64,000 bases of DNA from Amyelois transitella (taxonomy: Eukaryota > Arthropoda > Insecta > Lepidoptera > Pyralidae): contig NC_083514.1 in NCBI RefSeq assembly GCF_032362555.1, positions 3,705,001-3,769,000 on the forward strand, written 5' to 3'. Positions 3,308-57,535 of this stretch are shown in pieces. How positions within the stretch are numbered: position 1 is the first letter of the stretch; the number at the start of each line of letters is the position of its first letter. The notes below the pieces were generated by a model that was not told the DNA's origin, did no database searches, and saw only the letters and a program-made list of their open reading frames with translations. The position numbers were made by a program, and so were the translations under genes.

Positions 3308-5495
3308 ACATACATACATAAAATCACGCCTCTTTCCCGGAGGGGTAGGCAGAGACTACCTCTTTCCACTTGCCACGATCTCTGCATACTTCTTTCGCTT
3401 CGTCCACATTCATAACTCTCTTCATACAAGCTCGGCGGTTTCGGGTACTTTTGACCTGACCCTTTACCAGGACGTCCTTAATTTGATCAAGATACGTTCG
3501 TCTAGGTCTTCCCACTCCGACCTTTCCCTCCACACTCTCCTTGTATATCTGCTTAGTCAACCTGCTTTCATTCATCCTCTCCACATGACCGAACCATCTT
3601 AACATACCCTTTTCTATTCCTGTAACTACATCTTCTTTCACATCACAACATTCCCTTATCACGCTGTTCCTTATCCTGTCACTCAATTTCACACCCATCA
3701 TACTCCTTAACGCTCTCATTTCCACTGCATTTATTCTGCTTTCATGCTTCTTTTGCCATACCCAACTTTCACTCCCATACATTAATGTCGGGACCAACAC
3801 GCCCCTGTGCACAGCCAGTCGAGCCTTTTTGGATAGTTTCTGACTGCTCATAAAGGCATGCAAAGCTCCATTCACCATGTTCCCCGCGTTCACTCTCCTT
3901 TCAATATCACTATCATACTTGCCATCTGATGTAAACTTTGATCCTAGATATACAAACTCTTTCACTTGCTCCACTTTTTCTCCTCCAATCAAAATATTAC
4001 ATGCTGTCATTTCTTTCTCCATTTCAAAAACCAGTGTTTTAGTTTTACTTACGTTCACTTTCATTCCTTTCTCTTTTAAAGCTTCATGCATACAGTTTAC
4101 CATCTCCTGTAACTCCTCCGCTGATGACGCCAGTATAACCTGATCGTCGGCATAGAGCAGACATTTGACGAGTAACTCATTCATCCTTAATCCACTTTAA
4201 GACTCTTTCAAATCTGTCAAACAGCTATCCATAAATAGGTTGAACAGCCACGGTGACGCAACACATCCTTGCCTAACGCCTTTCTCAATCTTAAACCACT
4301 CAGTGTGCGCTCCGTTTATCCTGACACAAGCACTCGAATCCTCATATAAGGATTTCAGTGCTCGTATTAAGAGACTGCTCACCCCATGCATAGAAAGTGC
4401 TGACCACAATTCATTCCTCTCAACTCTGTCATAGGCCTTTTCCAGATCTACGAATGTGCAATAGACTTTTTGACTCTTGGCCAAAAACTTTTCGGCTATG
4501 CACCGCAAGGAAAAGACCTGATCAGTACATCCCATTCCCTTTCGAAATCCCGCTTGAGCATCCCATATTTTGTCATCAGTTTCATTCCTGACTCTATTAA
4601 TCAATACCTTAGCATACAATTTGCCGACGACGCTAAGCAGGCTTATACCACGATAATTTTTGCAGTCCAGCTGTGACCCTTTTCCTTTGTAAAGTGGCAC
4701 GATAACAGCCTTACACCAATCTTTTGGTACTCGGCCGCTTCTCCAACACAAATTGAAAAGGCAGTACAACTGACTAGCTACTACGCCTTTTCCTGCTTTA
4801 AGCATCTCGACCGACACTCTATCACACCCAGCAGCCTTTCCCGCTTTCATACTCTTAAGTGCTTCCACAATTTCGAACATTTCAATTTCGCCTTCCATCT
4901 TATTCTCTTTTTCTTCGCTATAGCGGAAATCTTTCTTATTTCCTTCCTTTTTTTCAAATAAACTTTCAAAATAGTCCTTCCATATCTTTAGTACACATTC
5001 TTCTCCTTTCACAACGCTACCATCCTGGCATCTGATCCTAGTCAGCTCTCTGGTTATAGTATTTCCTCGGGCTGACCTTACGGATTTCCAGAATACTTTC
5101 AGATTTGACTGAAAGTCTTCTGATAGCCTTTTATCAAAATCCTCTTTATACTCTTCTTTCTTTCTAATCACAGCTTTCTTAACCAAATCTTTCATTTTCT
5201 TATATTCCTTACGTGCTTCATTCACATCTTCATCTATAACCTCTTGCATTCTTAAGTTAGCTTTTGCTGCTAACAAATCCAGCCATGCTTTCTTCTTTAA
5301 TCGCACAAGTTCTTGCACATCTTTACTCATCCACGCATTTTTGTGATTTTTTCCTTTCCTTCTTCTACTTACACCACACACTTCAACAGCTACTTTCACA
5401 ATTCTTTCTTTAAATTCCTTCCATCCATCTTCAATATCGCTCATTTCCTCTAAATCTTCAAATTCATCCTTCAGTCTATTAATATACTTCTTACC
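3308..5495 (-). mobile_element. 5'-truncated RTE-clade non-LTR retrotransposon
   Basis: A LINE on the minus strand, bounded by a 13-bp direct repeat, TATTTTGATAGTT, at 3295-3307 and 5496-5508, which I read as the target-site duplication. The 5' end (right side) is truncated within the coding region, so the endonuclease domain is missing. The 3' end is a short tandem (ATGT)n tail, as in RTE elements. Pieces of the same 3' end recur across the window (7181-7452, 8217-8330, 16250-16366, 18248-18300, 22803-22925, 24085-24165, 27720-27840, 28517-28695, 32696-32790, 34614-34703, 41885-41975, 47001-47088, 57932-57970). Reverse transcriptase and tail type support RTE; no search was run. Confidence 0.92.
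3324..5495 (-). pseudogene. RTE reverse transcriptase ORF, interrupted by one stop
   Basis: One frame stays open from the 5' truncation at 5495 to the stop at 3324, except for a single TAA at 4197-4199; about 707 codons lie between the first ATG at 5444 and the end. Reverse transcriptase blocks appear in order: GISLLSVVGKLYAKVL, AGFRKGMGCTDQVFSLR, FVDLEKAYDRVERNELW, GVRQGCVASPWLFNLF and the catalytic LLYADD box just after the stop. The C-terminal part includes MRWFGHVERM-like residues (seen as MLRWFGHVERM), usual at the end of such proteins. The stop lies between the QGC and YADD boxes, so this copy cannot encode a complete polymerase. Otherwise the frame is intact, which points to a young insertion. 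Confidence 0.9.
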
Positions 5496-9095: not shown

Positions 9096-9363
9096 TTTCA
9101 TCCGTGTGGTTCCCGGCACCAATAAAAAAAAAGAGTAGGACCACTCCATCTCGTTCCCATGGATGTCGTAAAAGGCGACTAAGGGATAGGCTTATAAACT
9201 TGGGATTCTTCTTTTAGGCGATGGGTTAGCAACCCGTCACTATTTGAATCTCAATTCTATCATTAAGCCAAGCAGGTGAACGTGGCCTATCAGTCTTTTC
9301 AAGACTGTTGGCTCTGTCTTCCCCGTAAGGGATAAAGACGTGATCATATGTATGTATGTATGT
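9096..9363 (+). mobile_element. Full-length S1 SINE-like element with 12-bp target duplication
   Basis: The S1 repeat starts with GTGTGGTTCCCGGCACCAAT, runs through GGATGTCGTAAAAGGCGACT and GGATTCTTCTTTTAGGCGAT, and ends with GTTGGCTCTGTCTNCCCCG and an ATGTATGT tail. Direct repeats ATCTTTTCATGT at 9084-9095 and 9364-9375 bound it. The right-hand duplication forms the pyrimidine tract of the 3' splice site at 9376-9377. It has no coding capacity. Its last 50 or so bases resemble the RTE tail, suggesting that the LINE mobilises it. Confidence 0.9.
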
Positions 9364-9383
9364 ATCTTTTCATGTAGGACGCG

Positions 9384-29053: not shown

Positions 29054-29315
29054 AGTAAGTACATACATACTTATGGTCACGTGTATATCCCTTGTGGGGT
29101 AGACAGATTCAACAATCTCGAAAAGACTGATACTGATTCAGCTGTTTGGCTTAATGATAGAATTGAGGTTCAAATAGTGACTGGTTGCTAGCCCATCGCC
29201 TAAAAGAACAATGCCTAGTTTATAAGCATATCCCTTAGTCGCCTTTTACGACATCAATGGGTAAGAGATGGAGTGTTCCTATTCTTTTTTGTATCGGTGC
29301 CGGGAATCATACGGC
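29054..29315 (-). mobile_element. Nearly full-length S1 copy
   Basis: In reverse it contains ATATCCCTTGTGGGGTAGAC, GGTTGCTAGCCCATCGCC, CCCTTAGTCGCCTTTTACGA and GGTGCCGGGAATCATACGG. Confidence 0.88.
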
Positions 29316-35279: not shown

Positions 35280-37426
35280 TAAGGTAAAAGCACCTATTAC
35301 GGAGGTATTTCGCAACATTTGAAAGTAAGAAGCAAAAATAAGCATAAGTAAGTATTTTGAAAGGTTCCAAACAAAATTATTATCTAAAATGGAATTTAAA
35401 TTTTGTATTGCTGTTGAGTCTAAGTATCCTTTCATGCGATTTCTTATTTAAAAAAAATATTTAAAAAGGCAGGTCGATTTTCCCTAATACGGAGGTATGA
35501 TTTTGGTCAGAGCCTATTACTGCGGTAGACGGCTCCTAATACGGAGGGTCAGGAAGTACATTAATTTAGGTTCCGTACAAATAATATGTATAACAATAAT
35601 AGAAATGTGTAAGTACCTTTATTGTAAGTTTTTCGTTCATTGACTATTTAATTACATTATTTCACTTTAATGAAATTAAAGACGACTTTGAATTTAAAGT
35701 ATATTATTTATTTAAAGTATATATATGTATATATTATTATTTAGTGTTTTCTACACGCGTGTGTACAGCTTTCACGGATTTAACAATATAAAAAAATGCA
35801 GGTTCATTTAGGAATTAAGTTTTATTTTTTATTACAATTAGTTACTTTGGCTAAGAAATAATGACGAACAATAACAATCATCTAAAATCTTTCAAAAATC
35901 AACACTTCGTAGAGGAACAAAAAGTAACAATAATGAAATATTTATAACATCAGTCTTTCAAAAACTAACACTCCGCAGAGGATAGTAAACTGTAACTAAA
36001 AGTTTTACATATTAAAAAATAATCACTTTAGTAATGGGTAGTGAACTTAATATAAGATACCTAAGTAAAGTTTAGGGTCAATTCAGGCTGCAGTTACAGT
36101 GGTCGACAGCAGCCCGAAGAGCATTTACAGCTTCGGAAGAATTTTAAACGTTCGCTACTAGACTAGCTTCGCTTCAAAACTGCTGGCTGTCGTCAGCAAC
36201 CGACGCCGCATCAGCCACCAACAGTTTTATTTTTTCGAGCGATTACTGGTCTATAAAATAATGAAAATAAAGTTTAAAACTCTTTTAAAACTTGCGTCAA
36301 TGCTGCCCGCTGCCACTGCTGCCTGAATTGAGCTATGAAAAAATGAAAAGAACAATTACGTAGATTGCATTAATTGATATTAAAATATTTAATTATTTCA
36401 ATGTTATTGATTTTACAAAAAAAAAAAACATTTATAAAAAATAAGAATCAGAAAAAAGACGATTTTTTTATTTATTTACGAAACCCTAAAATCTTGTGAT
36501 TTTCTGTTTAATTAATAAAGCCATAATAGGAAACCATATTACCTAATACAGAGTTACCTGGAAATAACTACCACCGTATTAGGAAAACTACTCGTGTTTT
36601 TAATAATCCTAATTCTGACCCATCAAAATTCCGATTAACAAAAGAGTGTAAATTTTTAATCAAACTACAACTATTTTGTGGCTAAGATGTGTAAAACTGA
36701 AGTAACAGTTATACACAGGATATTATTTGTGATAAATTAAAACACACCTCTCAATTTTTACCTCTCCTAAGAAACTAACATTTTGTACTCAACAGTTTTA
36801 TTATTTAACTAGATTTCTAATTGAGAACACATACCTCAGAATATGGTTATTAATTTATGAGATTAATAATTATTTCAATTGAACTTTTAACTAATTCAAA
36901 AACTTAATAATTTGAAAGTTATAAACAATTAAATTTTATCAGTATTTTTCCTATTACGGAGTTATACCACCGAGTTAGGATTAGTCTATAAAATTCGTAT
37001 CCTATTACGGCGGTATTTTATTTCTTATTTTTTGGGTAAAAACTGAGTTACAAACGTGAAACAAGCTATTTAATTTAAAAATTTAAAAGTAGGGAAATGC
37101 TATAAGTTATTCATAAACAAACTTGAACGGCCTATTAATACGAAAAATTGCCTTTGTAAATATTAGTGTGCTTACTTTTGTTGTTCCGCGTTTGTATGAA
37201 AACACCTGTTCCGTCGATGCCGTGACACAAACTGATTGATTTTGTTATGTTGCCAATGTGTTGTAGTTGCAAATGTCGGTTAAGTCGTGCCGTAATAAAT
37301 TTAGAATAAGACATTTGCGTTATGATGTACTTACACTGAATAGAACAGGAATAAAACTAAGAAATATAAATACCACCGTAATTGGAAGCGATTTTGACTA
37401 CCGCCGTATTAGGAGCTTTTACCTTA
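35280..37426. mobile_element. Non-autonomous DNA transposon with an array of a 15-bp motif
   Basis: The ends are 28-bp inverted repeats (35280-35307 and 37399-37426) with three mismatches, starting TAAGGTAAAAGC; a TA duplication would fit. Copies of CCTAATACGGAGGTA and its variants occur inside: plus at 35293, 35483, 35513, 35535, 36542, 36950 and 37001; minus at 36569, 36965, 37371 and 37399. Such subterminal repeats usually bind transposase. No frame long enough for a transposase exists. A smaller foldback element sits inside at 36078-36331. I do not recognise the family. Confidence 0.8.
36078..36331. mobile_element. Foldback MITE nested in the 35280-37426 element
   Basis: The termini TCAATTCAGGCTGCAG (36078-36093) and the inverse of TCAATTCAGGCAGCAG (ending 36331) form inverted repeats. 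The inside is rich in GCTGC/GCAGC words. A target duplication is not evident. Confidence 0.65.
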
Positions 37427-37537
37427 TGTTAAATTTTATGTGTTATTCCATTAAAATTAGAATCATAGTAAGTACCATAAAACCTTATGATACTGAGTAA
37501 CCAATGCACTTAGCACAGTTTTCTCTGCATGCATACA

Positions 37538-37722
37538 TACGAATATAATCACGTCTATATCCCTTGCGGGGTAGGCAGAGCCTACAGTCTCCAAAAGACT
37601 AGAAGGCCTGGTTCAGCTGTAAAGCCTCATGATGGAATTGAGATTTAAATTGTGTCAGGTTTCTAGCACATCGCCCACAATAAGAATCCCTAGTTTATTA
37701 ACCTTTCCCTTAGTCGCCTTAG
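37538..37722 (-). mobile_element. S1 copy, 3' two-thirds
   Basis: In reverse: ATCACGTCTATATCCCTTGC, GGTTCAGCTG, TTTCTAGCACATCGCC and CCTTTCCCTTAGTCGCC. The head is lost. Confidence 0.88.
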
Positions 37723-43800: not shown

Positions 43801-46800
43801 CATAAAAATCAATCTGAGAACCTACTTTTTTTGAAGGCAGATGGAAGGTTAAAGAGGCTTTATTTCTGTATCAAAATCATAGAAAATATTATTGCCTATC
43901 CCGCCCGATCCTACTGATTTAATTCACAGAACTGTGACCTCGTTTCTGACACTACAAAGAAACCATCAAATAGTTTGAACAGTTTTACTCGGCTATTTAA
44001 CTGTGGAGTTATTACCGCGGTAAAATACTATGATCATTATCTGTTCATACACCAATTTGATGGTTTCCGTATATTTCAGCTCTGACCAAACATATTGAAT
44101 ACCTATTTATTTGGCTTGATGCTCAACAAACATTGATTCATTTGATTTTATGTTTTTGATAAGTAATTTAAAATCAAGCTTTTTATTTTTGAAACATATA
44201 TTATATACATTCTTTTATTAATTAGATTCTGTTTTAAATATTGTTTGCGGTTTTCCTTATGATATTTGTCAGAGAAATTGAATGATTTGCTAAAGTTTTA
44301 AATGTACCTATTGGATACTTAGCTAGAAAATTCATTAATAATTTTTGAATTAAACTTTTTTATACCTCACAAATATATTAATACACGTCAATCATTACTT
44401 ATCTGATAAAAATAAACAAATGAAGACCTATTTGGTTTGGGTTCATTAAAATAAATAAGGAAAACCACAAACTGTTATTTAGGAAACGTATCTTCTGAAA
44501 CTAGTTTAGTTGCTTAGTTTAGTCCAGTTATTGCGTGTATCCATCTCTTCATCTATTGGCTGGGTGACGTCCAACAGACTGACAAACAGAATTCTAATAT
44601 TAGATGCCGACAATGTAGAAATCTTGTGTAGATTTATTTATAACTTTATAATAGGATCAATATCGTACATTCATAGACTTCTGTAATCTACGTAGCTCTG
44701 TAAAAATATGTAAGGTTCGATGCAGTAAAAATAAACGCTCTCATAATGACATAACGACGTAAAAATCATTAAAAAAGAGCTAAAAGATAAAACAAAACAA
44801 GCATTAATATTATATCTCAGGTAACTTTTTACCTGACTGAGCTTATAAATCAGTGAGATAAAATTAATGCTTCAAGTTCGATGACTTTTTCCAATCTTTG
44901 ATTTGCATAAGTCAATATTGTCGAAGATTTTAGTAAAGAAGGAAGGTCGTTGATCCGAGGGCTAACGGTACTTCGACCTACGATCCTCGAAGCGTTTATA
45001 TGACAAACGAATCGCCAGAAGCAAGTAGATTGTAATGGGTTATTCTCATTTTATTGCACCAAAAAGATGTTACTGCAAATCAAAATTTTATTGCGCATAG
45101 AGAAAACAAATAAAAATTTGCATGAGAATGTTTGGATATATTATGGGCTATTGGGTAAAAATAAAATTGTATATTAAAAAATATCATATCGTTGCGTTAA
45201 TACCTCGTAATACAAGTCTCGAACTTACTTCGAGGATAACTCATCTGAGTTATCTGTCCCGTATATATTCCAATATAACAATAAATATTTATTTCTGGGA
45301 AAAAGCTTTGGTTTCTAAAGTGCTGTGACACACACGGGTCCAAAAAAGATGGATGCTTTTGTTATATTTTGCCTAAATAAATGTACGGAATAACCCAACT
45401 ACTAGATCACGTTACTTATTAAAAAAACTAGCTTTATCACCAGGAAGTGCCGATTTCGCCCGACCTTCGAATAACTTGTTATGTTTTATACAATCATATC
45501 GCAATTCGCCATGTCGAGTTATTAAAATCAACAATGCCAATTAATGTATCCATAACAATAACTTACATACATTCTTGCTTATATTATTCCTTCGACCTCA
45601 TACAATTCCATTACTTATAATTAATTCTTGATATTACATCATTCAGACGATTTTCCGTTTGCTGGTGACGAGCCTGGAATCCTATGACCAGAATTAAATC
45701 CCGTTTAGCTTTTAATTGCCGCACAAGGTGTAGGCAATAGCTACCTCATAACACTTGTTTGGATAATAATAATTTGCATAGTACCTGATATGTATAAAGT
45801 TGCGTTTTTAAAGCAAGAGTGAATAGGCATTATTTGACCTTTCGGGTACCATCTTAGACCTTATTTGTATCAGGCAGAATCAGGTATACTAAAATTTCCA
45901 ATAAAAAAGTTCAGACACCAAATATAAAATGTGGTTAGAGTTGTATCACAGAAGTGAGAATAATACCTATAATTTTTTTGTTGTTGAATGTTGCGGTTGG
46001 ATGATAATTATTATCTATTGTATTCCAGATATGATCTCCACGAGGTGCCAGCCGAAGCCAGGGCGATGCTAGCCAAAATGACCCAGGTGACCAGTGCCAA
46101 CCTGCTGGCAGAGTGTGGCCGCAACGTCACGAAGATCTCCACCACTCCTGTGGTCGTCTACCTTACTGTCAAGAGTCCCGATCTGTCTCTAACCTGGGAT
46201 ACAGATGAGGAATATGTTTTGGATGTTCAAACAAAAGGTGAGTATTTCTAAAATAACATTTTTTTTTTAAAACAACCTTTAAGATGTGCAACCTATATCA
46301 TCTGAAGAAGAGAGTTCACTATTATTGAATACCAAGCCGGATTATCTTTTAATTCATTGTCCGTGGTATAAGTTGGTATAGATGATTTTTTGCAGTGCAA
46401 AGAACTTCCCCGTGTGATTGAGAAAAGACCAGCTTTACAGCTTTAAAAAAAACAATAAACTTATTCCAGATGGCAACGTGGCCGTCCGAATCATTGGTGA
46501 AACTATATACGGAGTACGTCATGGGCTCGAGTCTTTTTCACAACTGGTCGCTGCTGACAAACCAGAATTTTCTGACGAAAAGGAATGTGGTCTTCGCATG
46601 GTTACTGGGGCCAAGATACGGGATCGTCCTGTTTACAAACATAGAGGATTAGTCTTGGATACTTCAAGGAATTTTATCCCGATGAAAGATATCAAGAGGA
46701 CCATTGATGGCTTGGCCGCTACTAAAATGAACGTTTTCCATTGGCATGTGACTGATTCACACAGTTTTCCTTTGGAGTCTACTCGGGTGCCACAGTTTAC

Positions 46801-49800
46801 TAGGTACGTAAATTATGTTTTGAATTCAGTAAAAAAATATTCTGGAAATCCATTTTCAAATTAAATATTTCAAAACATTTATGTTTCCTTAAAAATTTTT
46901 CATGTTGCTTTATATCTTGGTGTGTGTTCCCATAATTTATTAATTTTCATACCCATTTAAATCGTTATTCTAAATGGTGAATGTTATCAGTTTCAAACAT
47001 AGGTACATACATAAAATCACGCCTCTTTCCCGGAGGGGTAGGCAGAGACTACATCTTTCCATTTGCCACGATCTCTGCATACTTCCTTCATCAGTTTCAT
47101 TTTCGCTATAAAAATATAGTACCCAATATTTGCACTCAGGATGGGTGCAAATATATTTTTATGCTTTGTAACCGTATTTCATCAATGACAAGATTGTTGT
47201 TTTTAATTTGTTTAGACCGAGCCGCATTACCTATGTAAATATCCAAGAATAATTCTACAATGAATATTTTATTGATTTCCAGATACGGTGCATATTCATC
47301 ATCAGAAATCTATTCGGCTAAGGAAGTGAGGGACTTGGTGGAATATGCGCAAATACGAGGAGTTCGTGTGGTTATCGAGATAGATGCGCCTGCGCACGCC
47401 GGCAACGGTTGGCAGTGGGGCAATGTAAGTAAATACGTTGATTATGAAAATATACTGAACACATGAATAATTATTACAAATAATAGGACTCCCTTTGTCG
47501 ACGTGTCTAGATTTAAGGAACGTAGATATCTCAATATAATGTGGGTTAATAAATAATGAACTTGTTACAGTGACACGAAATTGAACTTAGGTCCTACTTA
47601 TGTACATTATTCGTTCATTACTTAGTACTTATGAAAAATAGTTGGCAAATTTTAAGATCGGTTGATTACTCAACACCAAATCTTCGAAAACTGTTTTTTT
47701 AGTAAGTAACTGCAAAATCTTATCACCAGTAAACTACAATACCATTCGTCGTTCTACTTCCAGGATTACGGGTACGGGGACCTGGCGGTTTGCGTCAACT
47801 CCCAGCCCTGGAGGAACCTGTGCATCCAGCCGCCGTGTGGCCAGCTCAATCCTGCCAACGAAGTCATGTATAAAGTCCTAAGGAATTTGTACAGAGATAT
47901 CGCTGAAGTACTGCCCAAGCCTGCGCTGTTCCATATGGGTGGAGACGAGGTAAAAATCAAGCTTGTTAGACGAAGACGCCCGCGGTTTCACCCTCGTTAA
48001 ACGAAAATATCCATACATTGTCGTTCCCGCGGAAATTTTGTTTCCTCTGATAGTGCACTTCTAGACAGCAAGGTTTGGGATGTGCGTTGATTTGTTAGTA
48101 TGTCAATTCGTTTTACGCCACTTGGTTTGCTAGTTTTGAGCATCAGTCGACTACAAAATCTACTCACAAATATATATTACTAACAAATGTTTGTAAAATA
48201 TGAGTGTTTTCGTTGGCAGTAGTAGATGTAAAACAGAAAATAGTGTCTAGGTACCACGAGCTATAAAATAAAATGGTATTTATACTTATACATTACACAC
48301 TACTTAAAGCGGAAGTCACTGAACGGATTTCATAAAACATCAAACCTATTCAACGGGTAGCAAAATCCAAAGAATTTTTGAAAATTTCCTACAGGACCTA
48401 ACACCTTATCACTCATTAGTCGTTTTATTGCTTCCAGGTTTTCTTCGGGTGTTGGAACTCAAGTCAAGACATCCAATCGTACATGGCCAACAAAGGCTTC
48501 AGTTTGGACCAAGAAGGCTTCATCCGGCTCTGGGCAGAATTTCACGCAAAGTCCCTTCAGATTTGGGATGAGGAACTGGTGGCCGAAGGAGCAGTGGGAA
48601 ACCAACCGGTGATGCTTTGGTCTTCAGAGCTTACCCAAGCGCATAGGATACAGAAGTATCTGAATAAGGACCGGTAAGGATTTAGCAACTAACGTTACAA
48701 TTATAACATCATTTGTTCTCCTACGATCTTCTGAGCTCATGCAGTTCAAAAGTATTTAAATAAATACCAGTTATTTAGTATCCTTGCTAGACAGAAATAT
48801 TTTGTACACCTTATAGCGAAGAGCTAACGCTGATACAGAGCATATTTCCTGAGTATTTCAGACAAAGATCATATTTTCCAAGTAAAACAAAAAATGTATC
48901 CCCACGGGTATTTTGGTACATCTTCTTGGTGCACCCGTAAATAACATAAAGAACGTGAATTACAAACCTCTAAACCCAGCGGTTTGGAGTCAATCAGTGT
49001 CTTTCTTTGAAGAATGCTGACATAGTATATGTTAAGAAAAGGATTTGGCAAAACAAATGACAACCCCTGATCAGTTGTTACATTGACTATTTATGGTTCA
49101 AGATAACCAGCAAGGGTACAAAAGACCACACAATAATAATAGTAATCATATTTTCTTTCAAGCTACGTCATTGAAGTATGGGAGCCACTGAGTAGTCCAC
49201 TCCTCACTCAACTACTAAAGATGGGTTACCGCGTGGTGTCCGTGCCCAAAGACATCTGGTACCTAGACCATGGGTTCTGGGGGACCACCAGGTTCTCCAA
49301 CTGGAGGCGTATGTATTCCCACATTCTCCCGCGGGATCCGGGAGTGTTGGGTGGGGAAGTCGCTATGTGGAGCGAGTATATGGATGCACAGGTTTTAGGT
49401 AAGTTTTGATTCATCTCATTCTAACTAATAGCGTATCCTCAATTTACTAAACTGTTGGCAGAATTTTACGTCAATCTGTTTCTTCAACTTTTCTTCTCAT
49501 AAGTCTCGCCCAGTCACATCCTTAGCTCTCTGGGGAGGAGTTGGGTTTGCGCCGTTGACCAACACTTCACATGGTTTTTACGCGAACACGAAGCGACACC
49601 TGACCACCTCCGCAACCTTTACAGGAGACCCTCAGCCATACTTATTCGATCATCGCAAAAGCTGCACTAGATGAATTTGCCTATATCTTTTCACGACCTC
49701 CACGGTAAAAAGCGGTGCAATCCTATTCTCAGGTTGGATATGTTTGTTTCCGTGAATGTAGATACACGCGTATGGCCACGCGCAGCAGCAGTGGGGGAGC

Positions 49801-52122: not shown

Positions 52123-54613
52123 TTACATCGATATGTTGCTTCTGTTAATGTTTCTATTTTCACCAGAATTTCTCCCAGAACCTAAACTTAGGTCATTTGG
52201 AACTAACTCATTTAACACAGTGTCACTTCTAAAAATGCTTGTGGCTATTCTACTAGCAAGTCTTTCCGAATCCCTTAAATCATCATCTTTGGAAGAGTGA
52301 GACGTAAGGTCAATTTCTGTATCGCTTTCACTATCGCTCTCCTTTTCTTGTCTTCGGTAAGCCAGGTTTTGCGGTTCATCCATATTTTGAACAGAAGTGG
52401 CGCAAGCACACGGGTTTTTAGATATGACTCTTAGATCAGTAGGTGCTACTTCGGAATTATCCATTTGGGGTGGCATTAGAATTGGTGGGAATGGGAAAGG
52501 CTGTTGCAGCATCCTGTTATCTTCAGAATTATAAATGGGAGGAGGGATTTCATGTGTCGGAGTTGGAATTGGTGGATGAGGTTCATTGACTCCGTTGTGC
52601 ATGTATGGGTCATGTCTCGGCGATTTGAGATCTCTGGTTTCCATCTGCGGAGGCTCTGGTGAATCTTTTTCGGTTGGTGAATCAGGAGCCTCGGGTGAAG
52701 AATCCGGTGGTTTAGCATGCCCTGAAAAAATTATTGTTATGTTTAAAAAAAAACTATTGATGATGCGGTAATAATTTCAAGAATAGTTGGTGACGAGTTG
52801 CACGGCAGCCATTTGTAATATACTTTTCCAAATCTCAGCTAAGCACTGTGCAGTATCACTTAAACTTAGATTCTTCCAAACCTTCTCTTAAAAGGGCACT
52901 TCTTTATAATCTTAAAAATCTTGCTTGCTAATTGCGAGAACCACTAGTGATTGGATGTTAAGAAGTAGCAGAGGTACTCTGAAAATGAAAGTCAACGCAA
53001 TGCAAAACCTTTACAAAAACAGGTAAGTACCTTGAAGCGACAGCGGCGGAGATCCCAGGCCGAGGCACCTCATCCTCCAAGCGTCCTGCAGGAGTTGAAG
53101 CCGGGCCTGCTTCCTCCACTTCGCGCGACGGTTCTGGAACCACACCTGTTGTGCCAAATTAAAAATTGCTCTGAAGTGTTTATAAAAGTAAATAAAATCT
53201 TTAACGTTTGCGAAAACGTGCCGCGTGGTTCCCGGCACTAATATAAAAAAAGAATAGGACCACTCCATCTCTTTCCCATGGATGTCATAAAAGCCGGCTA
53301 GTGGATACGCTTAAAACTAGGGTTTCTTCTTTAAGGCGATAGGCTAGCAACCTGCCCCTATTTGAATCTCAATTCTATCATTCTAGCCCAACAGCTGAAC
53401 GTGGCCTGTCAGTTTTTCAAGACTGCCGGCTCTATCTACCCAGCAAGGGATATAGACGTAATTATATGAATGAATGAACGTTTGCGAAAAAGATATTGCA
53501 ATATAGTTTTCTTAAAAATACTATGCTTTAGAACAAAAAATCTTTTGGCTATGAGAAAGGTGAAGTAAGATTATAAGTCCATAAAATTTTCTCGCATAAT
53601 TTCGTTGCCATATGATATGTGCTTTCCAGTTTCTCTTTATATTCCGAGAGTAAAATTGTAACTGGTCTGGTCAATATTGGAGACAATTTTAAAAATTGTG
53701 CACTTTATAAGTAACAATATCCTTAAGTTTGTTTTTTTTTAGGTACATTGAATGATATAAACTGCTGCTTTTGGTTGCCAGAGGATTTGGCCTTGTCAAT
53801 TTCATCTCGATAAGCCACTTTAAATGCCAATATTAAAACTAATTGTCAACCCACGGAAACAGAACATTATTCAGTGATCATATAAGTAAAAATAGCACCT
53901 AAATTTTTTCAAAGACATTTTTAACTTGTGTTATAAAAGGTGTTTCTCATTTGAGTTCGATGTATTAGGTACTTCACGACCGTTATTAGTTAGTATTAAA
54001 AAAAGTATCAATAAATGAAACATTCGTTTAAAAATTTAAACAATTCAATTTTATAAGTTAAAAAATATTCTAGGGTACCCCATTTTTAAAAACACTTCAC
54101 GGCATTCACAAAACGTAAAATTAATATTGATAGCATTAAAATATCTAACAAACTTACAAAAATATATGATTCATTCGAAACTTATAGTTAGCATATAAAA
54201 AATATGTACGAGTATCATACATTTAACATACATGCTAAAAATAAAATGTATGTCAGCAGGTTATGAAAGTTTTTTTATTTTTTCTAAAGGAAGGATAAGT
54301 ACTTGAAAGACGGAATAAAGATGACATTACGATTAATCAGAATAATAAATCGTTCATAGAATATTTATTCTCAAAGAGTATTATGTAGAAGGAATAAATG
54401 ACGAACCTGCACCCTAGCCTCCGACAGACTGATCCTCAGCGCTACCTCCTCCCTCAGAAAGACATCAGGGTAATGTGTCTTCTGGAACAGTGACTCCAGC
54501 TCACTCAGTTGCTGCGGTGTAAAGGTGGTGCGGTTCCTGCGCTGACGCCGCCGACCAAACATGTACTCAGTCAACAAATCTCCCGGTAAAGGAGAAAGAT
54601 ATGGACCAGCCAT
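52123..54613 (-). CDS. PRD-class (paired-like) homeobox transcription factor
   Basis: Three minus-strand exons, 54407-54613, 53031-53145 and 52123-52721, join in phase to 306 residues. The homeodomain spans residues 24-83, opening [20 protein letters not shown], with helix 3 [13 protein letters not shown]. Position 50 is Gln (residue 73), as in paired-like proteins without a paired domain. Helix 3 is split by the intron after RVQ, a common site in this class. The flank [17 protein letters not shown] is distinctive and, from memory, recalls Drosophila CG11294; that assignment is tentative. The C-terminus is rich in Pro, Ser and acidic residues (for example [14 protein letters not shown]), as in regulatory tails. 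The donor of exon 1 is GTTCGT, weaker than usual. It is a nuclear DNA-binding regulator; targets are unknown. Confidence 0.95.
53217..53476 (+). mobile_element. Full-length S1 element in homeobox intron 1
   Basis: It runs from CCGCGTGGTTCCCGGCAC to an ATGAATGA tail and is flanked by a 14-bp duplication AACGTTTGCGAAAA (53203-53216 and 53477-53490). At 260 bp it helps define the S1 ends. It is opposite to the gene and lies 70 bp upstream (in the gene's direction) of the 115-nt homeobox exon. Confidence 0.93.
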
Positions 54614-54960: not shown

Positions 54961-57535
54961 CGTATGAGGAAATATAAATATTGTATAAACACTTACTTCA
55001 TTTATTTGCGAGGTATTAATGAATTTTGATGAAATTAACACCTAATTTTTATAAATTACATTCAAACCATTTCCTTGTTTATAATTATTTATTTGACCAG
55101 TTAAGGTAAAGAACAAGTTTTACTTGAGCACAGGAAATTTAATAAATATATTAGTACATAACTTACAATCACGTGTACACTCCTTGCGGGGTGTACGGAG
55201 CCAACAGTCACCAAAAGACTGATAGGCCACGCTTATTACCAAAGTAACTTTTTTCACAAAATTAATTTGGTGGTTTGCACACTTTTTAAAGTAATTCATA
55301 TTTATTTATTTTTCTTTTTATACTTTATGCACTATTCACACATTAGAATAACAGTAATGAAAACAAACTATGTATTTATATTTCCAAATTAATTGAAATA
55401 ATCAACTGTCTGTTAGGCGTTTCAGGCTAAATCGTTGGACTGATTTTCATAAAATTACAAAAAGCATTTCATAAATTTTAAATAACGAGTTTTATCTAAG
55501 TTTACTTTTTTTTAAATTGGAGGAGGAGAGTAAGTAGTTTGTATGAACAAATCGCTACCTAGGTACTAGGTTAGAATTTTATATTGCGGACCCGATTATA
55601 AAATAGGGTAGGTAATTTTTGTTTCTTGTAATCTAATCACTGGTTTTAGAGAAAAACCATTAAAATTGATTGTGATAAAAAGTGCTTGCAAGAAAACATT
55701 TTTTTTAATTTTATTCCCTTAAAAATGACATTTTTAATGGAAATAGCTTCCTTGGCTACTCGTTGAACCGATTTTGATGAAACTGCTCGATATACTTACA
55801 CGCACATACATGTGTTCGAACTTAAACATGAAATAACTATTTTAGGTTTCTGATGTAACTGCTTTACAGCAATGAATTCCCGGGTAAACAGCTGGTCCAT
55901 ACCTACTTCCATCCATAATGATATGAAAAGATTTGTGTCTATGTTTTTTTGTCTGCAATAAATGAACTCAAAAACTAAAAAGAATTATCTAGTAACATAG
56001 GCTACTTTTTGCAAAAACCCACGAGAGCGAAACCCCGCCCAAAGTCTAGTTCAAGATGCACAATCGTCTCACTTATCCAAAAATTCAAATTTAAAATTTT
56101 TTTGTCTTTGTGCCATGTCTTGTTTTGACCATAACCTGTCATAACAGGCCAATTCAATGGAACTAGTGGGATAGATCGAAATACCAAATAATAGATTTAT
56201 TTTAAAAGTGGATATTACCTGATCAATTTCTAGAATCTATTCTGTAATATTCTTTCTCCTGGCGTCAATAGTGGTTGCATCTTCACCTCTACGGGTACGG
56301 GTCTCAACTCTCCGGGTACGGATACATCTTTTAACCGATTAATTGATTACTTTATTGGGTAAGTCAGGTTTTTCCAGTATGTGACTCCCTTCTGACCCAC
56401 GCAAGAGGAACCTCATACTCGTTCAATATACAGAATAAAAATTTAAAAACATAATGTTGGCTATTGTCTCATAACATCTAATTAATTTAATTCTTGCATG
56501 TTGTTCATATATATACACCAATAGAAAAAGATAAGGACTACTTCTCTTCCTATGGATGATTTTTCTCTTTCTCATGAATGTCGTAAAAGGCGACTAAGGA
56601 ATATAAAATTGGGATTCTTCTTTTAGGCGATGGGCTAACAACCTGTCACTATTTGAATCTTAATTCCATAATTTAGCCAAACAGCTGAACGTGGCCAATC
56701 AGTCTTGTCAAGACTGTTGGCTCTGTCAACCCCGCAAGGGAAACAGACGTGATTATATGTAAGTAAGTATGGTCATATATATACAGAGGATATTAATATA
56801 TAGAACAAAATATCCCACTTTTCTATTTCGCGGGAAATCTGGGACATGAGGCAATTACATGCCGAATTTTAAATTTCTAGACGCAAGAAGACGAGTAGGT
56901 AATTAAGTAACTATTAAGGAATAATTATAAGCATAATTACATGATTTAAGATTTTGATCCTAATTAGACCGTAGTCAGTTTGTAAGTCTTTTAATTATGA
57001 TATTCATAAGTATATATCATACTAAATTGACGATGAGCTGAAATGATAAAATAAAATTTTAAAAGCAGCTGAGATAACGAACAGGTATTAAATACAGCAA
57101 AGTGGGTTGAGATAGCAAAAACAGCGATCACTGGTAAATTAATGTCGCGTTGCATCGTCGGTGACGGACTTGTTAGGGTTGCCAAATTGGAAAATTTAAA
57201 CAAAGTAAAGCATATTTACTAAGATACTACTTATTTGACGACCTCATTGATAACAAAATAGCAACCGGTATTGGAAAAATTCTGAGCAAAATCATTAGTA
57301 GACGGTCGTCAGATGGATTAGAATTAAGACACAGATTTGTTTTTATATGAACTTTTCTATAGTTTCTGAAACCCATGCCATTGATATTGAGGGGGGAAAG
57401 CTTTGTTACAACTTAAAGTCTTAAATAAGTACCTCAATATCAAAAGTTGAGTTCCTATGGGTAAAATTATTTATTACATAAATCAAGATAATTTTTTATT
57501 AAAAAAAATCCATGGATTGCCAGAATTTTCTTTTA
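54961..57535. other. Intergenic stretch upstream of the homeobox gene
   Basis: No gene recognised. It includes an S1 end at 55160-55240 (minus), an S2 copy at 56270-56425 (plus), a headless S1 copy at 56516-56770 (plus), and AT-rich filler. Confidence 0.5.
56516..56770 (+). mobile_element. S1 copy with rearranged head
   Basis: AATGTCGTAAAAGGCGACTA, TTTTAGGCGATGGGCTAACA, CAGCTGAACGTGGCC and ACCCCGCAAGGGAAACAGAC, with an ATGTAAGTAAGT tail. A short duplication disturbs the head. Confidence 0.88.

Follow-up and report, generated by a model that had tools for sequence, protein, structure and literature searches.

A probable internally deleted pogo-superfamily transposon in Amyelois transitella and its array of predicted transposase sites

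Introduction

What is a 2.1-kb element that ends in short inverted repeats, carries eleven variants of a 15-bp motif and encodes no transposase? The question is posed by a locus in a 64-kb stretch (hereafter the window) of the 327-Mb A. transitella genome, which is assembled in 33 contigs. A first-pass annotation had offered two explanations for the motif copies, multiple transposase binding sites or an array with a function of its own. The comparisons described below make it very probable that the locus is a non-autonomous element, derived by internal deletion from a DNA transposon of the pogo superfamily that was active recently; its motif copies represent predicted transposase sites.

Structure of the element

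The element proper (35282..37424, plus strand, 2143 bp) lies between two TA dinucleotides, at 35280..35281 on the left and 37425..37426 on the right. The inverted-repeat element proposed for 35280..37426 was confirmed, except that its bounds move inward by the TA on each side, which belongs to the target DNA. With the TA counted in, 25 of 28 positions (89%) pair between segments 35280-35307 and 37399-37426, as originally observed. Comparison of the ends with each other and with copies elsewhere in the genome placed the terminal inverted repeats (TIRs) at 35282..35307 (left, plus strand) and 37399..37424 (right, minus strand). No open reading frame of at least 100 aa overlaps the element in the window, in agreement with the claim that it has no transposase frame, and no RNA family reached its gathering score anywhere in the window.

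Allowing up to 3 mismatches, CCTAATACGGAGGTA was found 12 times in the window, once outside the element and 11 times within 35293-37413, which matches the number of variants first reported there. The chance expectation is 1.2 per window, and the largest count in 100 shuffles was 4. Four sites on the left, all in plus orientation, are located 12 bp (the outer site, 35293..35307), 202 bp (35483..35497), 232 bp (35513..35527) and 254 bp (35535..35549) from the left end. The sites on the right are of mixed orientation and are found 869 bp (36542..36556, plus), 842 bp (36569..36583, minus), 461 bp (36950..36964, plus), 446 bp (36965..36979, minus), 410 bp (37001..37015, plus), 40 bp (37371..37385, minus) and 12 bp (the outer site, 37399..37413, minus) from the right end. 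The one at 40 bp, referred to below as the second or tandem site, was called by the PWM as well. These orientations, with the close inverted pairs 36542/36569 and 36950/36965, are those given in the first description. A simple tandem repeat was considered as the source of the motif and rejected, because no tandem array was reported in the element. CCTAATACGGAGGTA probably marks the place at which a transposase binds.

One stretch within the element, 36078-36331, has 25-bp imperfect inverted ends of its own. It was not accepted as an independent MITE: its 57 candidates equal the number expected from the element family, and no separate copies occurred among the best 40 of these 57.

Copies of the element in the genome

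The 26-bp end has 56 exact matches per strand genome-wide, and 56 and 57 matches when up to 3 mismatches are allowed. Among the matches listed, 49 copies have both ends exact, while C4:6031111 and C4:8086106 have one end each; their bodies align, and the other end was not found within 3 mismatches. Queries taken from the left (279 bp), right (525 bp) and middle (254 bp) of the element each gave 57 first-look candidates; the best 40 of 57 are 98-100% identical, none of them decayed. The best 40 matches of a full-length query are 96-100% identical. The search for the termini, recommended in the first-pass annotation, thus revealed about 57 copies sharing the same ends, a lower-bound count, and the locus is not the only one of its kind.

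Among the 49 listed pairs of ends, 47 enclose 1945-2417 bp and the remaining two 4684 and 5223 bp; the gene-less form accounts for approximately 54 copies. TA was present directly outside both ends in all 23 copies checked (21 plus two more). Mean pairwise divergence among 21 aligned copies is 1.06%; the invariant ends in this alignment are a biased observation, because the copies were found by their exact ends. The element family is young and has been recently active.

To look for empty sites, another check proposed earlier, the joined flanks of 21 copies were compared with already retrieved sequence only. The joined flanks of L010 match repeat paralogues of about 73% identity over the junction, which is consistent with a single TA, with an alignment gap just beyond. 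The match for L018 starts only 11 bp left of the junction. L010 is the 5.2-kb copy; it is non-autonomous and contains a nested reverse-transcriptase-like frame (identified by eye).

Two copies on C8 (C8:381597-383736 and C8:440478-442617) are 59 kb apart. Their alignment contains no differences and their flanks differ, which suggests a recent local jump.

Autonomous copies and classification

Three long copies with the same ends, L009 (C8, 4684 bp), L030 (C27, 4684 bp) and L039 (C32, 4683 bp), provide the autonomous partner whose existence was to be checked. L030 and L039 differ little from L009 (99.96% and 99.83% identity), and each of the three contains one uninterrupted 837-codon frame of pogo type, the product of which has 824 aa. 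The gene is located on the minus strand of the element, so that the right end is its 5′ side and the left TIR lies on its 3′ side. The 824-aa protein matches the Pfam domains HTH_psq (31.6 bits) and HTH_Tnp_Tc5 (25.2 bits), both over the cut-off, and DDE_1 (55.1 bits, cut-off 22), a domain absent from the window copy. Its catalytic triad is DD35D. The same spacing was reported in 6 of the 11 families measured below; the pattern searched for was not matched in the remaining five. No solved structure resembling the transposase was matched at E 0.001, and no relative was confirmed in viral or prokaryote contigs (20 and 90 pattern stretches, respectively).

Some 2.54 kb of L009 are absent from the window copy; this segment begins close to the start codon and extends approximately 60 bp past the stop codon. 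Both edges of this segment in L009 carry CTATG, and BLAST breakpoints place the corresponding junction in the window copy at 36333..36337 (plus strand). The window copy thus arose by an internal deletion at CTATG microhomology, which removed the gene but left all 11 sites in place; as is typical of such non-autonomous derivatives, its ends are those of the autonomous element and the coding part is gone. In L009 the same 11 sites (3 mismatches) are all noncoding and none lies in the open frame; its noncoding DNA, when shuffled, contained on average 0.03 sites and at most 1. The alternative that the extra segment of L009 is a second, nested transposon was rejected, as this segment has no inverted ends (by eye) and its edges are the CTATG direct repeats.

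The features given for pogo elements in PMC7386202 assign the element to this superfamily, and at the superfamily level only: TA target duplication, DDE_1 with a DDxD triad, HTH_psq/HTH_Tnp_Tc5 domains and short TIRs (26-28 bp). According to the same source, pogo is a superfamily of IS630-Tc1-mariner transposons comprising six families. The transposase tree constructed here covered proteins of the A. transitella genome only. The earlier remark that no named family with this motif was known holds insofar as no description of the element was found, but the superfamily itself is well known. In summary, this is a deletion derivative of the ordinary kind, and no description of the pogo family it comes from was found in the literature. 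From the shared ends and low divergence we infer that the gene-less copies would have been mobilised in trans by the 824-aa transposase.

Motif sites in other pogo families

A protein search of the same genome gave 60 matches (494 candidates, of which the best 55 were scored), and a DDE_1 profile search gave 150 (the best 150 of 246 candidates). From these, 13 families, which are part of those in the DDE_1 listing, were examined in one copy each from this one genome; all were found through similarity to the 824-aa transposase or its DDE_1 domain. Eleven were measured: A (L009), B (L041), C (L042), D (L044), E (L048), F (L051), G (L053), H (L055), I (L046), J (L047) and K (L059). For B, C, F, G, H, I and J the ends were assigned manually, on the basis of repeat searches or inspection of the sequence.

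In all 11 families, the commonest 12-mer outside the gene (with at least 4 G or C and all four bases present) is a variant of the inner TIR of the same family. The motifs differ between families, being CCTAATTCCGCGGTA in B, CCAGTAATCGACA in C, CCAGTACTCAGCC in E, GGGGTAATTGCGTC in F, AAATATGGCCA in G and TTACTTGAGACAGT in H. The transposases of nine families share 27-64% identity over aligned parts. Families C and D have VPRITLHDK in common in the psq region and their motifs are nearly the same, while the other families shown differ in both. BLAST hits between the flanks of different families are few and short, with the most distinct one (38 bp) linking C and D on corresponding sides.

These data bear on the idea that the motif is bound not by the transposase but by a host protein, such as an enhancer, insulator or replication factor. 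Motif arrays of such size can be host-factor sites, although nothing direct points to one here. However, in each of 11 families within a single genome the motif is a variant of that family's inner TIR, and it changes from one family to the next, so a family-specific transposase is expected rather than one host factor. We consider binding by a host protein highly unlikely.

Of the remaining two families, L058 yielded no ends. L060 (G000:C16:9558280-9561516) is a 2115-bp element with a 512-aa Tigger-like product and an array of its own inner-TIR motif. Its matches (3 mismatches in 12, without a shuffle control) occur at 8, 67 and 83 bp on the left and at 8, 23, 115, 159 and 208 bp on the right, with one more inside the gene. 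It also has a tandem site on the gene-5′ side, but its spacing is shorter, and for this reason the 190/380 layout described below is not general to pogo elements.

Positions of the sites

Distances were counted from the outer site, with every gene set on the minus strand. The first internal left site is at 190, 191, 189, 189, 191, 189 and 191 bp in A, B, C, D, E, I and J, respectively, i.e. at 189-191 bp in 7 of 11 families, and at 187, 175, 161 and 174 bp in F, G, H and K. There are no PWM calls less than 160 bp from the left outer site in any of the 11 families; a weaker left match of H at 56 bp (3 mismatches) is absent from the PWM calls. On the right, the second site follows the outer one at 28 bp in A, 29 bp in B, 18 bp in C, D, E, H and I, 17 bp in F and G, and 20 bp in K. 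In J the distance is 18 bp, measured from an outer site that the PWM did not call and that was located by eye. Including this case, all 11 families have the second, gene-5′ site at 17-29 bp. The first site of the right cluster is found at 359-401 bp in ten families, and J, which is without it, joins at the next positions. The span from the tandem site to the cluster is 360-373 bp in 9 of 11 families, 342 bp in G and 399 bp in J. Within the coding parts, PWM calls number 3 in A, 2 in C, 4 in D, 1 in E, 1 in F and 2 in H, with none in B, G, I, J and K.

Agreement of these positions between families was compared with random placement, omitting the close pairs A-B and C-D. For the 11 families, agreements within 5 bp number 134 on the left (null mean 15.2, maximum 38) and 180 on the right (null mean 43.3, maximum 74), and none of 2000 random placements reached the observed value at either end. 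When whole clusters were randomly shifted (nine families), the observed value was again never reached (0/5000 at each end). Seven families (A, B, C, E, F, G and H) served to write down where sites should fall, and the sites of D, I, J and K were measured after that. Three qualifications apply: the sequence at the TIR start of D was already visible at that point, no usable ends had at first been obtained for L046 and L047, and the numeric windows (left 195-260, right 25-45 and right 385-465) were drawn up from the position note only at a later stage. Random placement reached the three-window counts in 0/20000 trials for D, 1/20000 for K and 31/20000 for I, with J outside this test.

An array that is merely a passive by-product, i.e. 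functionless copies of the end sequence scattered by duplication, would agree with the situation within the family, where site conservation is not significantly above background (6/135 variable columns at sites versus 156/1956 elsewhere, p = 0.18; ends versus middle, p = 0.19). Selection on the sites is for this reason inferred across families only. There, positions agree among families whose flanks hardly align, and passive copies are not expected to hold a distance of 189-191 bp, which makes a functionless origin the least credible of the explanations weighed here. Because ten other pogo families keep the positions with different motifs, the comparison would indicate selection on the spacing and not on the motif alone. 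As arrays recur at matching positions with other motifs, predicted transposase sites, the first of the two explanations originally offered, also fit better than a motif with a private function.

Another possibility is that the internal sites are mainly operators through which the transposase, or a truncated form of it, autoregulates its promoter, and that the outer sites alone matter for transposition. In its favour, all 11 families have the tandem second site on the gene-5′ side, where called sites also outnumber those of the other side in 8 of 11 (equal numbers in F and G, fewer in K, with the outer site of J placed by eye). On the other hand, the left cluster on the gene-3′ side is also present in 11 of 11 families and its distance is the tighter one (189-191 bp in 7 of 11). 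The gene-less window copy needs no promoter, yet it retains every site, and none of the 49 listed copies with two exact ends is shorter than 1945 bp. A founder effect might likewise account for the retention of sites in gene-less copies. On balance, a predominantly regulatory role of the internal sites seems improbable, and transposase sites serving transposition remain the preferred reading.

Neighbouring features

Two adjacent frames with RVT_1 matches at 3324-5444 (minus strand) represent a broken non-LTR-like element and are very similar, by eye, to the frame nested in L010. An exon-like frame matching Glyco_hydro_20 is located at 46418-46864 (plus strand). A SINE-like interspersed repeat of about 120 bp occurs at 9242-9364, 29060-29175, 37528-37650, 53360-53476 and 56651-56771, as well as in the flanks of the element copies. 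Elsewhere in the genome, five DDE_1 matches with an exact 3249-bp period at G000:C32:4068788-4082215 form a tandem array of a pogo-like transposase gene, and many other pogo frames on C32 are among the DDE_1 matches listed.

Discussion

The layout suggests how such an element might work. The N-terminal helix-turn-helix domains of the transposase would recognise the motif, and the protein may form a complex of fixed geometry over the outer and inner sites. In this complex the outer site would lie 12 bp inside each cut end, with a second site close behind it on the gene-5′ end only and internal clusters approximately 190 bp (left) and 360-450 bp (right) inward. The DDE_1 domain would then cut at the TA-flanked ends and insert the element at a new TA. 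The extra 10 bp at the tandem site of A and B correspond to about one helical turn and would fit phased binding.

More tentatively, the sites may build an asymmetric nucleoprotein scaffold common to this group of pogo elements, with a geometry that stays nearly constant at the base-pair level even as the recognition sequence changes, and with the two ends synapsed with one and two nucleosomes, respectively. The nucleosome reading starts from the two spans, one of about 190 bp and one of 360-373 bp, which are near one and two nucleosome repeats; the one-to-two ratio is not kept in H and K. We regard this scaffold as a conjecture with odds somewhat against it.

Binding of a transposase to sites within the ends of its element is known from several systems. 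For Drosophila pogo, Wang, Hartswood and Finnegan are said to have described, in 1999, a 12-bp transposase site in the TIRs, reportedly 26 nt long. The site is said to lie about 14 nt from each end and to have inner copies, giving two copies per end. The outer sites described here are very similar to the 12-bp sites so reported. In contrast to Drosophila pogo, the present element has 11 sites, which extend inward as far as 254 bp on the left and 869 bp on the right.

Sleeping Beauty and its kin, the IR/DR elements, have an outer and an inner site at each end, within TIRs of about 220 bp, and all four sites are needed; as presented in PMC7827188 and PMC3680223, transposase sites spread over some 200 bp per end and an ordered synaptic complex is formed, the former being a likeness to the element studied here. 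The IR/DR structure itself, with inverted repeats of more than 200 bp and two direct sites in each, is not present: the inverted repeat extends over 28 bp only (TIR of approximately 26-28 bp), the ends are unequal, and the sites are more numerous and partly inverted. In the hAT elements Herves and Hermes, the transposase is likewise reported to contact several sites inside the ends. These elements belong to another superfamily, with an 8-bp target duplication, unlike the TA flank and DDE_1 transposase found here.

In the literature covered, mainly open-access titles and abstracts, fixed-geometry site arrays in pogo elements were not found, which is weak evidence of absence; the main text of PMC7386202 does not contain the word "subterminal", and no site arrays were encountered there.

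The wider result is the agreement of site positions in 11 pogo families despite diverged motifs and flanking DNA. It turns the notion that a transposase binds several sites into a testable geometric rule, and the families offer a natural series of DNA-binding domains paired with motifs. CENP-B, a domesticated pogo transposase, binds regularly spaced boxes in satellite DNA. The geometry may also bear on how pogo transposases became centromere-binding proteins; if the nucleosome reading is true, a habit of nucleosome-scale spacing would have preceded their domestication into CENP-B.
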